From Bartonella doshiae NCTC 12862 = ATCC 700133 (GTDB taxonomy: Bacteria; Pseudomonadota; Alphaproteobacteria; Rhizobiales; Rhizobiaceae): 64,000 nucleotides of DNA. Positions within the stretch are counted from its first letter, which is position 1, and each line of letters starts with the position of its first letter. Position numbers and translations under genes: made by a program. The stretch spans positions 375,765-439,764 of the forward strand of contig NZ_JH725094.1 of NCBI RefSeq assembly GCF_000278155.1, in the 5' to 3' direction. The notes under the pieces were generated by a model. That model was not told where the DNA came from and made no database searches. It saw only the letters and a list, made by a program, of their open reading frames with translations. Below, piece by piece: positions 827 to 6,304 of this stretch.

Positions 827-1414
827 TTATTTAGAATGGATATCTCTCTTAAAGTTATACCTTATAGGTGGAATTTGATATAAAAACTTGGGGAAATACG
901 GCGCTATAAACTGAATCACACCCCAACTTATAAAACTGCCTAAAATTGTACCAGCTAAAATATCGAAAGGATAATGTACACCAACAAAAATACGTCCCCA
1001 ACAGATCAAACATAAAAATACCATTGCAAACTTAGATGCAACTTTATATTGGTAAAAATAAAGGCATGCTGTATACGATGCAATCGTTAAAGCATGATTA
1101 CTAGGAAAAGAAGCTGTTGCCCGATGCTTAATCAGTGGTGTCGTCAAACCCATAACAAATGGTCGTGGATGAAAGTAAACGAGAGAAATAAGATAGCCTG
1201 TAAAAAGAGCTATACAAATGCTCGTACAAATGCTTAGTACGACACGTCGTTCCATATTTCTACCACAAAACCATAGTATACTAAGATGTATGGGAATAAT
1301 GTAAATCAAAAATTTGGCACAAAAAATACTAAACAAAACTAAAATCGAACATGATTGATGATTCCCTGAAAATATTCCAAAAAGTGCTACATCAATCTGA
1401 TTAAAAAAATCCAT
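827..1414 (-). CDS. PAP2-family membrane phosphatase
   Basis: This is a small integral-membrane lipid phosphatase of the PAP2 superfamily, which includes undecaprenyl-diphosphate and lipid A phosphatases; the substrate cannot be told from sequence. Counting from a possible longer start at 1471, the signature is HPRP near residue 101, PSNH with His126, and Arg160-x5-His166 followed by PFDILAG, the usual three-part active site. Several hydrophobic segments surround these. I chose the ATG at 1414 (195 residues) because AAAGGAG sits at ideal spacing before it, while the longer start has no comparable site. It runs in the same direction as fabD. Confidence 0.85.
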   Translation of the reverse strand: MDFFNQIDVALFGIFSGNHQSCSILVLFSIFCAKFLIYIIPIHLSILWFCGRNMERRVVLSICTSICIALFTGYLISLVYFHPRPFVMGLTTPLIKHRATASFPSNHALTIASYTACLYFYQYKVASKFAMVFLCLICWGRIFVGVHYPFDILAGTILGSFISWGVIQFIAPYFPKFLYQIPPIRYNFKRDIHSK

Positions 1415-1767
1415 TTGTTTCTCCTTTACCCTTCTTAACAGCTTTATAATCTTGCTTCTGTGTAAAAGCATGAAACGTATAAAAATATATCAAAATTCAA
1501 TACATCATATTTTTTATGCACATGAGCTTGCTATTTTTAAAGATAAGCTGTAAATGTCAAACATTCGTTGCCGGCACTTTAGCTGGAGGTTGAACGGAGG
1601 ACTGAAAATGATCAGTAGGAAATGCAATATTTCCGACCTCCCGTGTCTCCGCTCTCGGATGTCTCGAATTGTTAAATGCGTCCTTTCTTCTTTGGATCTC
1701 CGAAAAAGACAAGTCGCAGAGGCTTTGCGCTGAAACCGGTAAATTTTAATTGGAGAAAGGCAAAACA
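1415..1767. promoter_or_regulatory. Divergent intergenic region between PAP2 gene and rpsF
   Basis: This 353-bp stretch carries the promoters for the PAP2 gene (minus) and the rpsF cluster (plus). TTGCTATTTTT at 1529-1539 could serve either as a -35 (TTGCTA, 17 bp before TAAATG) or as an extended -10 for rpsF, and I cannot decide between them. The downstream half holds a strongly foldable RNA element (separate entry). A good ribosome-binding site, GGAGAAAGG, precedes the rpsF ATG at 1768. I see no convincing gene; a minus-strand open frame through here overlaps rpsF and looks accidental. Confidence 0.5.
1581..1653 (+). promoter_or_regulatory. Branched RNA leader element upstream of rpsF-rpsR
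   Basis: The transcript can form a branched fold. The outer helix pairs AGCTGGAG (1581-1588, one bulge) with CTCCGCT (1647-1653). The next helix pairs ACGGAGG (1594-1600) with CCTCCCGT (1637-1644, one extra C). Inside lie two perfect hairpins: ACTGA/TCAGT (1601-1605/1612-1616) and GGAAAT/ATTTCC (1618-1623/1629-1634, loop GCAAT). All helices are nested. Ribosomal protein leaders often carry autoregulatory RNA sites, and an S6:S18-binding leader motif has been described in other bacteria. That this is an equivalent is inference; I matched only the location and the structured nature. Confidence 0.5.
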
Positions 1768-2580: not shown

Positions 2581-3558
2581 ATGAAAAACTTTCGTACTTA
2601 CGAAATAATGACCGGTATTTTAGCGGGGCTTTTTGTTGTCGTCATAGGAATGGCAATTATTAGCGTTGCAAATATTGCACCCTACCTTTCTCTGCTTCTG
2701 GGTTGCTTTCTTTCACTTCCTATCTTCATTGTTGCATTTGGGCGTGGAACATTAGCAAGCCTTGTTGCCTTAATAAGTGCTACTGTTGTCCTTTTTATGG
2801 TTGCTAATGTATACATTAGTCTTGGATTTATGTTATTATTTTTTCTTCCTGCTGTTTATGCTTCTTGGCTTCTTGGGCTTGCACGGCCAGCACAAAAAGA
2901 AAATTCATTGATATGGTATCCGTTATCATCTGTTATTTTTCACTTAACAAACTTTATAGCTCTCCTTTCAACCTTTATTGGACTTTATGTCCAAACACGC
3001 CCATCTACACCTATTATAGCAAAAAAAATCACTGAAAATATAGCACAAACTATGCAACAGTCACAATCGATAAAGGAAGTAGATTTACTCGCTTTTAAAG
3101 AACTTTTGATGACAAATGCAGCAACTTTAACAGCTATTTCTTTAACTATTTATAGTTTAATCTTTCTCATTGGTAATCTTTATTTTTCTATGATCATAGC
3201 ACAATATATGAAGTGGTCAAAAAGACCCCGTGAGGATTGGAGCAAAACTCTTCGTATTCCGATTGCTGGAATTGTGATTTTTATCGCTGTTTGCATAACA
3301 TCAATGATTGAATTGGGTTTTACTCTTAACTTGAGTATGCGTGTCTTTACCTCCGCCTATACTGCTGTCATATCAATCAGTGGTCTAGCATATCTCCATA
3401 ATATTACAAAAGGGATAAGCGGTCGGGTTATTATACTCTCTCTTGTTTATCTTGCTATTTTAACTGTCGTTTTTGCTCCACCTATTTCTTTCATGATGCT
3501 TCTCATGGGGATTTGGGCTGCTATTCAATACAATTTTCAATCATGCAATAAGCCTTAA
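2581..3558 (+). CDS. DUF2232-type multi-pass membrane protein
   Basis: This is a 325-residue, very hydrophobic protein with about eight predicted membrane segments, matching in length and position the DUF2232 (YybS-like) protein that sits between rpsR and rplI in Rhizobiales. No catalytic motif is visible and the function is unknown. A central hydrophilic stretch (about residues 140-180) separates two membrane blocks. The start at 2581 follows a purine-rich stretch but no strong ribosome-binding site. The 155 bp before it include a TATAAT at 2500-2505 that could give the DUF2232-rplI pair its own promoter after the rpsR terminator. Confidence 0.8.
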   Translation: MKNFRTYEIMTGILAGLFVVVIGMAIISVANIAPYLSLLLGCFLSLPIFIVAFGRGTLASLVALISATVVLFMVANVYISLGFMLLFFLPAVYASWLLGLARPAQKENSLIWYPLSSVIFHLTNFIALLSTFIGLYVQTRPSTPIIAKKITENIAQTMQQSQSIKEVDLLAFKELLMTNAATLTAISLTIYSLIFLIGNLYFSMIIAQYMKWSKRPREDWSKTLRIPIAGIVIFIAVCITSMIELGFTLNLSMRVFTSAYTAVISISGLAYLHNITKGISGRVIILSLVYLAILTVVFAPPISFMMLLMGIWAAIQYNFQSCNKP

Positions 3559-4813: not shown

Positions 4814-6304
4814 ATGGAAGAAACCAGCACCGTTAATTTCAGCTCTACATCAAAAGAAGAGTCCCCTTCTTTTCCACAGCTTCCGCATAATATTGAAGCT
4901 GAACAGGCATTGCTTGGAGCTCTTCTCATTAATAATGATGCACTTGATCGTGTTTCAGATTTTCTAAAACCAGAACATTTTTTTGAGCCCTTGCATCAAA
5001 AAATCTATGATATTTTGTCTCAGCTCATCAAAAGTGGAAAACTTGCAAATCCTGTTACTATCAAGCACTTTATTCCAGCTGAAGAAACGGTTGGAGAAAT
5101 CACCGTATACAATTACGTTGTTCGTTTAGCCAAAGAAGCAGTAACAATCATTAATGCTGAAGATTATGGAAGAGTCATCTATGACCTTTTTATTCGACGA
5201 TCTTTGATTAATCTTGGTAATCAAATTGTTAATACAGCTTTTGATGCTCCCATAGATATTACACCATCACAACAAATTGAAACAGTTGAACATCAACTAT
5301 TTCAATTAGCAGAAAAAGGAAAATACGGGGGTGGATTTGAAAATTTCGATGAAGCCATCAAAAAAGCTATTGATATGGCGAGTGCTGCAAAAAAGCGCTC
5401 TTCACACTTATCAGGAATAGCTACCCATATTAAAACACTTGATGAAAAAATGGGCGGATTACAAAAATCTGACTTAATTATTCTCGCTGGACGCCCTGGT
5501 ATGGGAAAAACCGCGCTTGCTACCAATATTGCCTTTAATATTGCTAACGCTTGCAATCGTGACGGAAAAACACAAGAAAATGAGGGAGGCATTGTTGGAT
5601 TTTTCTCACTGGAAATGTCATCAGAACAACTTGCAACCCGTATTATCTCTGAACAAACAGAGGTCTCTTCTTCTGATATTCGTCGTGGCAATATTTCAGA
5701 AGAGCAATTTTCAAAAATAATCCGTGCAATGAATCGTCTACAAAAAGCGCCACTTTATATCGACCAAACTGGTGGTATATCAATCACCCAATTAGCAGCA
5801 CGCGCTCGGCGTCTAAAACGACAGCATGGTTTAGATGTCTTGATTATTGACTACATCCAGTTAATGACCAGCAATTCAAGGCGTTCATCTGAAAACCGTG
5901 TTCAAGAAATTACAGAAATTACCACAGGGTTAAAAGCATTAGCTAAAGAACTGAATATTCCTATTATTGCACTTTCACAGCTTTCACGCCAAGTCGAAAA
6001 TCGAACAGACAAACGACCACAACTTTCAGATTTACGAGAATCTGGTTCAATTGAGCAAGACGCCGACATCGTTCTTTTTGTATACCGTGAAGAATATTAC
6101 CTTAAAAATGAACAACCAAAGGAAGGGAGTCCTGAACATGTGAAATGGCAAGACGCAATGGACGAAGTTACAGGAAAAGCTGACGTTATTGTCGCAAAAC
6201 AACGCCACGGACCAACAGGAACCATTCATCTCGCCTTTCAGTCTGATTTCACACGCTTCAGTGATCTGGCAGACAGTAACTATCTTCCAGAACAAATTGG
6301 TTAA
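4814..6304 (+). CDS. dnaB: Replicative DNA helicase DnaB
   Basis: The hexameric replicative helicase unwinds DNA at the fork and recruits primase. The N-terminal domain (PHNIEAEQALLGALL at residues 24-38) precedes a RecA-like motor with Walker A GRPGMGKT near residue 226, the Walker B region IIDYIQLM and the arginine-finger segment near SQLSRQVENR, followed by DLRESGSIEQDADIV. The 496-residue length is normal; there is no intein. It is followed 6 bp later by radA, so the two are probably co-transcribed. Confidence 0.97.
   Translation: MEETSTVNFSSTSKEESPSFPQLPHNIEAEQALLGALLINNDALDRVSDFLKPEHFFEPLHQKIYDILSQLIKSGKLANPVTIKHFIPAEETVGEITVYNYVVRLAKEAVTIINAEDYGRVIYDLFIRRSLINLGNQIVNTAFDAPIDITPSQQIETVEHQLFQLAEKGKYGGGFENFDEAIKKAIDMASAAKKRSSHLSGIATHIKTLDEKMGGLQKSDLIILAGRPGMGKTALATNIAFNIANACNRDGKTQENEGGIVGFFSLEMSSEQLATRIISEQTEVSSSDIRRGNISEEQFSKIIRAMNRLQKAPLYIDQTGGISITQLAARARRLKRQHGLDVLIIDYIQLMTSNSRRSSENRVQEITEITTGLKALAKELNIPIIALSQLSRQVENRTDKRPQLSDLRESGSIEQDADIVLFVYREEYYLKNEQPKEGSPEHVKWQDAMDEVTGKADVIVAKQRHGPTGTIHLAFQSDFTRFSDLADSNYLPEQIG

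Follow-up and report, generated by a model that had tools for sequence, protein, structure and literature searches.

In Escherichia coli, the complex of ribosomal proteins S6 and S18 represses translation through the rpsF leader, in a structure that holds the putative Shine-Dalgarno (SD) sequence, and this repression needs both proteins (PMC4647458). The corresponding Rfam model (RpsF_leader, RF02893) spans 85 positions and contains a stem that encloses a hairpin, with a CCG-bearing bulge (AAUCCGU in E. coli). A leader of another shape, found in Chlorobi, has been assigned to S6:S18 on operon grounds (PMC7247131). The text of the same paper (Eckert & Weinberg 2020) remarks on the 'conspicuous absence' of the S6:S18 leader in Alphaproteobacteria and cites unpublished candidate motifs. 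Here, we analysed the region upstream of rpsF in the alphaproteobacterium Bartonella doshiae NCTC 12862 and found a conserved RNA fold that stands directly before this gene.

The rpsF locus compared with described S6:S18 leaders

The window, that is, the whole stretch of 64,000 nucleotides that was analysed, comes from a 1.8 Mb genome. On its plus strand it carries rpsF, encoding ribosomal protein S6 (1768-2172; PF01250, E 6e-32), rpsR, encoding S18 (2174-2425; PF01084, E 4e-25), rplI, encoding L9 (3586-4182; PF03948 and PF01281) and dnaB (4814-6304). An ORF of 325 amino acids lies between rpsR and rplI (2581-3558, plus strand), giving the operon order rpsF-rpsR-(ORF)-rplI; it matched no Pfam family at E 0.001 and resembles a membrane protein by sequence. 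An ORF for a PAP2-family protein (827-1471, minus strand) is located upstream of the rpsF leader, which measures about 206 nt from its inferred start. Neither tRNAs nor tmRNA were found in the window, and no Rfam family scored above gathering in it. The hits to snoR31, GmglnB1_5p_UTR and mir-598 (E 6-9, in 1200-2000) were far below their cut-offs and were rejected. At the Sinorhizobium meliloti locus L273, a weak Thr_leader match (E 0.083) fell below gathering and away from the leader. An upstream ORF was also discarded as a candidate, since closed ATG ORFs of at least 10 codons occurred in 153 of 294 leaders and in 163 of 294 shuffled ones, which gives no signal for a coding role of the leader.

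The element shares with RpsF_leader its place directly before rpsF, an upstream strand that pairs with the SD sequence and the operon with rpsF and rpsR, but here a closing helix (P1), a pair of arms and a pseudoknot take up about 190 nt. The sequence-only reading of this DNA had stopped short of identifying it with the S6:S18 motif already known, and covariance-model searches justified this caution. RF02893, which as a positive control scored 110 bits on the leader from E. coli, produced no credible match in the window, either at gathering or, in 1200-2000, at E 10. It matched none of 150 genomes of the order in a loose first look with strict filters and one of 289 genomes of the class (L357, below cut-off), few candidates being scored per genome in both searches. 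By the covariance-model test, the element is therefore not a member of RpsF_leader. Among 14 control genomes the model matched E. coli only, though 10 of them have an S6 gene, so the Rfam model seems narrow. A conserved unpaired CCG like that of the known S6:S18 site was not seen by eye in the core alignment described below (A2), which was the region covered by this inspection; the CCG strings in that core were in paired strands.

That no 16S-like S6:S18 site was recognised would suit a ribosomal leader whose ligand is S18, S6 or L9 alone, or another ribosomal or RNA-binding protein, and L9 is also encoded in the operon. The need for both S6 and S18, moreover, was reported for an E. coli leader that differs from this one (PMC4647458). 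We regard such a ligand as unlikely, because S6:S18 is the established ligand of rpsF leaders and because the differently shaped Chlorobi leader was likewise assigned to S6:S18 (PMC7247131). The latter resembles the element in being a predicted S6:S18 leader apparently unlike rRNA, but is restricted to Chlorobi; the two are set apart by the description in that text, not by their folds. The unpublished alphaproteobacterial motifs (Weinberg, named in PMC7247131) concern the same gene and the same bacterial class, and our element is probably one of them, the text of that paper giving neither sequence nor structure for the motifs. Within the open-access texts that formed our scope, no paper was recognised as describing this structure. 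The main text of a 2024 survey of 50 genomes does not include rpsF (PMC11109978), and an RNA-seq study of Bartonella bacilliformis that reports 15 potential leader RNAs does not name rpsF in its main text (PMC7717549).

Architecture of the leader and covariation within the genus

The whole element comprises about 175 nt (1568-1742), and its expression platform extends to the SD sequence at 1752-1760; all of its features lie on the plus strand. P1 is formed by a 5′ strand at 1568-1583 (TTGCCGG, 1568-1574; TTTAGC, 1578-1583) and a 3′ strand at 1729-1742 (GCTGAA, 1729-1734; CCGGTAA, 1736-1742). In the central arm, P2 (1584-1590 with 1645-1651) is separated from P2b (1594-1600 with 1637-1644, C1642 being bulged) by a UGA bulge of 3 nt (1591-1593) that is conserved with exceptions. 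The 3′ strands of P2b and P2 (CCTCCCGTGTCTCCG, 1637-1651) are strongly conserved, partly through the selection of sequences. Two hairpins complete this arm, P3a (ACTGA/TCAGT, 1601-1616, stem 1601-1605/1612-1616) and P3b (GGAAATG/TATTTCC, 1618-1634, stem 1618-1624/1628-1634). The second arm, P4 (1661-1723), was given by RNAalifold on 69 leaders as the helices 1661-1665/1719-1723, 1678-1689/1706-1717 and 1691-1695/1700-1704. Between P4 and P1 runs a conserved junction strand (AGGCTTTGCGC, 1720-1730), in which GGCT..GCG recurs in the leaders of the order that were inspected and whose columns are nearly invariant within the genus.

The sequence-only reading had proposed two nested outer helices and two internal hairpins at 1581-1653. 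These are present and find comparative support, although as an element this interval corresponds to the central arm (P2/P3) alone, while P1 and P4 make up the rest; P1, P4 and the pairing with the SD sequence were absent from that reading. It had also called the fold unusually orderly, which does not hold by energy: the minimum free energy gave z 0.06 for 1540-1790 (99 of 200 shuffles as good) and z -0.46 for 1575-1680 (55 of 200). As the folding energy was the same as that of shuffles, we rejected it as support (z about 0), and the evidence for the fold must be comparative. In this respect the pairing evidence was strong.

We aligned the leaders from all 71 genomes of the genus (the window genome and 70 others), every one of which has an S6 match; they amounted to 87 copies, 69 of them distinct (alignment A1). 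The RNAalifold consensus contained 57 pairs, of which the 4 near the start codon were dropped and 53 were counted. Among the 69 leaders, 99.1% of 3655 cells were paired compared to 97.2% in shuffled alignments and 43-53% when the structure was slid, a comparison biased in favour of the structure because it was derived from A1 itself. Two-sided changes affected 14 of the 53 pairs and 96 cells (shuffled means, 7.8 pairs and 22.6 cells), and further pair types numbered 52 against 47.6 in shuffles, of which 1 in 500 reached as high a count. P1 is the best-supported helix within the genus, with two-sided changes in 8 of 13 pairs across the 69 leaders; such changes were also present in P3a (2 of 4 pairs) and P3b (1 of 3). 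Outside the genus, the P3a stem varies in both sequence and length. The P4 helices were paired in 97.1-100% of cells within the genus and no pair had changed on both sides, so the evidence for P4 is weaker than that for P1-P3 and rests on conservation and the fold. Because the folding energy equals that of shuffles, the structure might be read as a chance fold, or the conservation attributed to the DNA (a promoter or a protein site) instead of to RNA structure. We give this reading scarcely any credence, as it is contradicted by two-sided compensatory changes far above both the shuffled and the slid controls.

Occurrence before rpsF in the order and the leader transcript

An S6 match was present in 149 of 150 genomes of the order. 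The leaders from outside the genus comprised 109 sequences, 29 from loci of S6 matches and 80 taken by place (one of 97 nt only), and a further set of at least 119 loci matching the exact 19-base pattern CCCGTGTCTCCGCTCTCGA in named genomes. In 118 of the 119 pattern loci listed, tblastn placed an S6 gene 91-141 nt further downstream, in the same orientation; the remaining one (L246) had no tblastn match and a visible apparent S6 start. Going by their names, we take 80 of the listed pattern loci to be from Hyphomicrobiales, including Sinorhizobium meliloti, Rhizobium, Mesorhizobium and Brucella.

For the central arm, 74 diverse core sequences, 8 of them from the genus, were brought together in alignment A2. 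They were picked by the patterns [CT]TGA[AG] and GT[GA]T, which fixed or narrowed columns 17-24 and 104-113. P2 and P2b were paired in 98.8% of 1036 cells (93.3% shuffled, 46-55% slid), with two-sided changes in 7 of 14 pairs (2.9 in shuffles) and in 58 cells (12.4 in shuffles), and 48 of these 58 cells fell in three pairs (columns 25-27/98-100) untouched by the selection patterns. Specifically, P2 was 99.0% paired with two-sided changes in 4 of 7 pairs, its 3′ side being partly narrowed by selection, and P2b was 98.6% paired with such changes in 3 of 7 pairs (48 cells). The presence of UGA in 74 of 74 sequences follows from the TGA contained in the selection pattern; leaders lacking it include L117 (CTGTACGG) and L148 (CTTAACGG). 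When P1 strands were swapped among leaders, own strands scored 19.46 and swapped ones 15.27 (largest 15.83) outside the genus (n=166), and 17.54 and 15.24 (largest 15.66) within it (n=68), after exclusion of 60 of the 294 distinct leaders with unfit patterns or lengths. The compensatory changes across relatives on which the sequence-only reading had made its proposal depend were thus found in P1, P2, P2b, P3a and P3b.

A covariance model of the central arm (R1) was built from A2, to which some genomes of the order had contributed. It matched the window once, the window sequence being in A2, and gave one match each in 134 of the 150 order genomes. In 132 of these 134, the match was on the same contig and strand as the S6 match and 63-196 nt upstream of it; in the other two (G142 and G072) the S6 match was at the start of another contig. 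R1 matched 73 of 80 stretches directly upstream of rpsF; 41 of the 80 had contributed to A2, and among the remaining 39 it matched 32. Sixteen of the 150 genomes had no R1 match, although three of these (G092, G122 and G145) did match in the upstream stretch. All four sampled members of family f4, with genomes of 1.3-1.4 Mb, were among the 16. In the f4 leaders L184, L190 and L195 the strings of the element were absent, and it seems that small genomes in this order do not carry it before rpsF. In L063, an insert of about 100 nt separates the end of the element from the SD sequence when compared to its relative L062.

The element sits before rpsF, in what is probably the 5′ UTR of this ribosomal protein operon, and has a conserved RNA structure with covariation. 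Both are features of ribosomal leaders, and in all likelihood it is one. Its covariation and position also support the suggestion, made from the sequence at the outset, of a distinct alphaproteobacterial ribosomal leader. The size of the element, its multibranch closed by P1, the conserved junction strings and a platform directed against the SD sequence would likewise befit a riboswitch or other sensor that responds to a small molecule or growth signal and controls a ribosomal operon by masking its SD sequence. This is improbable given that the element always precedes rpsF where readable (132 of 134 genomes and 118 of 119 pattern loci listed) and that the described leaders of the rpsF operon respond to ribosomal proteins.

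Upstream of the element, a probable promoter was located at 1528-1555 of the plus strand (TTGCTA, 1528-1533; TGTAAAT, 1549-1555), with a predicted start at about 1562. Its -10 is weak, and a consensus promoter scan listed no plus-strand promoter. A TTGnnn-N15-18-TAT pattern no more than 95 nt ahead of the P2 anchor was present in 168 of 195 leaders testable among 227 from outside the genus, compared to 4% of shuffled ones, the pattern having been chosen after inspection of the sequences. In S. meliloti, a transcript estimated at 110 nt, sra29, was detected by Northern blot between rpsF and Y00569 and called a probable rpsF leader; its table entries for the other species listed are dashes (PMC2245857). 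It corresponds to SmelC246, a 187-nt RNA found by sequencing and classified as RNA type 3, that is, an mRNA leader (PMC2873474). The leader of another S. meliloti strain (L273) carries the element, with 220 nt from the end of TATAAG to the ATG. Judging from the flanking gene and the strand, sra29/SmelC246 is probably the detected transcript of the element: it also comes from the region upstream of rpsF and was filed as a leader, but in these reports it figures as a transcript only, without structure, covariation or anti-SD pairing. Together with this transcript, the promoter-like pattern would place the transcription start upstream, and not downstream, of position 1653, as the sequence-only reading had presupposed.

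The detection of sra29 at this same place could also mean that the element is a stand-alone small RNA that precedes rpsF by chance (PMC2245857). This is very improbable, as the same report considers it a probable rpsF leader and PMC2873474 lists SmelC246 among mRNA leaders; moreover, its pairing partner is the SD sequence of rpsF itself and the spacing between pattern and start is kept (91-141 nt).

Anti-Shine-Dalgarno pairing and the diversity of rpsF leaders

Within P4, the strand CCTTTCTTC (1682-1690) is complementary to the SD sequence of rpsF (GGAGAAAGG, 1752-1760), from which 7 nt remain to the start codon; the two strands form nine pairs, one of them G-U. This pairing was scored as the best helix that the P4 region could form with the 24 nt (less 2) at the 3′ end of the leader. 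We could parse 258 of the 294 distinct leaders, and the 36 dropped by the patterns include both carriers of the element (L070 and L161) and apparent non-carriers (L184 and L190). For the 189 leaders from outside the genus, own strands averaged 22.4 compared to 18.1 for swapped ones (20 swap means, the highest being 18.5) and 13.3 when P4 was shuffled, kinship among leaders being still included in the scores of the swap and shuffle tests. Paired variants of the two strands (anti-SD/SD) were found: GCCTTGTCT/AGACAAGGC in L069, GGCCTGTC/GACAGGCC in L117 and L134, GTGCCCTT/AAGGGCAC in L135, TCCTCGTC/GACGAGGA in L048, CTTTCTTGC/GCAAGAAAG in L273 and others, and the compensatory pair CTTTTCTTGC/GCAAGAAAAG. 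As judged from these sequences, the anti-SD pairing is kept in the order by compensatory change. When the strands were placed independently of pairing, 131 to 183 of the 189 leaders paired per column, the outermost column being the weakest (131); most of this was invariant, since the SD core is constrained by 16S rRNA. That a strand further upstream pairs with the SD sequence is a characteristic of translational switches, and this pairing is thus conserved among the 189 leaders from outside the genus.

As the 3′ strand of P1 sits between both partners, the anti-SD pairing crosses P1 and makes a pseudoknot. By a strict contiguous-helix criterion, P4 reuses the anti-SD strand in 171 of 255 leaders. 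Rough energies for the window were -12.7 kcal/mol for the SD duplex and -10.7 kcal/mol for the P4 hairpin, the cost of the pseudoknot loop being excluded. These values suggest that both structures would compete in near balance in the window, an arrangement that suits a translational switch with two states.

We consider it likely that the element is a cis-acting leader of rpsF-rpsR in which P4 and the SD sequence form such a switch, most likely bound by S6:S18, so that the operon limits itself. According to this model, P1 would close the two arms, P2/P3 and P4. With 1682-1690 held in the P4 hairpin, the SD sequence would be free and translation on; with 1682-1690 paired to 1752-1760 across P1, which would have to coexist with this pseudoknot, translation would be off. 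Excess S6:S18 heterodimer, a ligand that we deduce from the operon, would most likely bind the conserved P2/P3 arm and the junction and stabilise the off state, and the operon would thereby limit its own output. A different, decidedly unlikely reading is that of a large pseudoknotted sensing RNA whose conserved junctions recognise something other than a 16S mimic. Its ligand might be a small molecule or a growth signal that acts alongside S6:S18 or replaces it; if true, it would represent a new class of ribosome-assembly control in Hyphomicrobiales.

In the class, R1 matched at least 10 of 289 genomes, with at most 14 candidates scored per genome; 4 of the 10 belong to the order and 6 to families f61 and f70, and an S6 match was present in all nine of these loci other than that of the window. 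At E <0.01, R1 matched 4 of 29 class leaders (28 of the 29 from outside the order), one of the four being in the order. A different layout, CUCCUUG(C/U)..hairpin..AGCC..AAGG, was seen by pattern in 12 of the 29 (L331, L334, L335, L338, L340, L341, L342, L345, L347, L351, L354 and L356), and the 8 of these 12 that were scanned against Rfam had no match at E 0.1. To go by its sequence, the first strand of this type could pair with the SD sequence, as in E. coli. Another 13 of the 29 fitted neither type by pattern (L332, L333, L336, L337 and L349, for example), and some of them may be further leader classes. From these mixed layouts, it seems that the class uses several types of rpsF leader, one taking the place of another.

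Altogether, the element is a strong candidate for the missing alphaproteobacterial S6:S18 leader, and a concrete, testable one, with a defined fold and a proposed switch, for a leader whose absence from Alphaproteobacteria was remarked upon in 2020. It occurs widely in the order to which rhizobia, Brucella and Bartonella belong. Confirmation would mean that one operon is controlled by the same protein pair (or another ligand) through RNAs of quite different shape, and the element would offer a model of how one such leader takes over from another.
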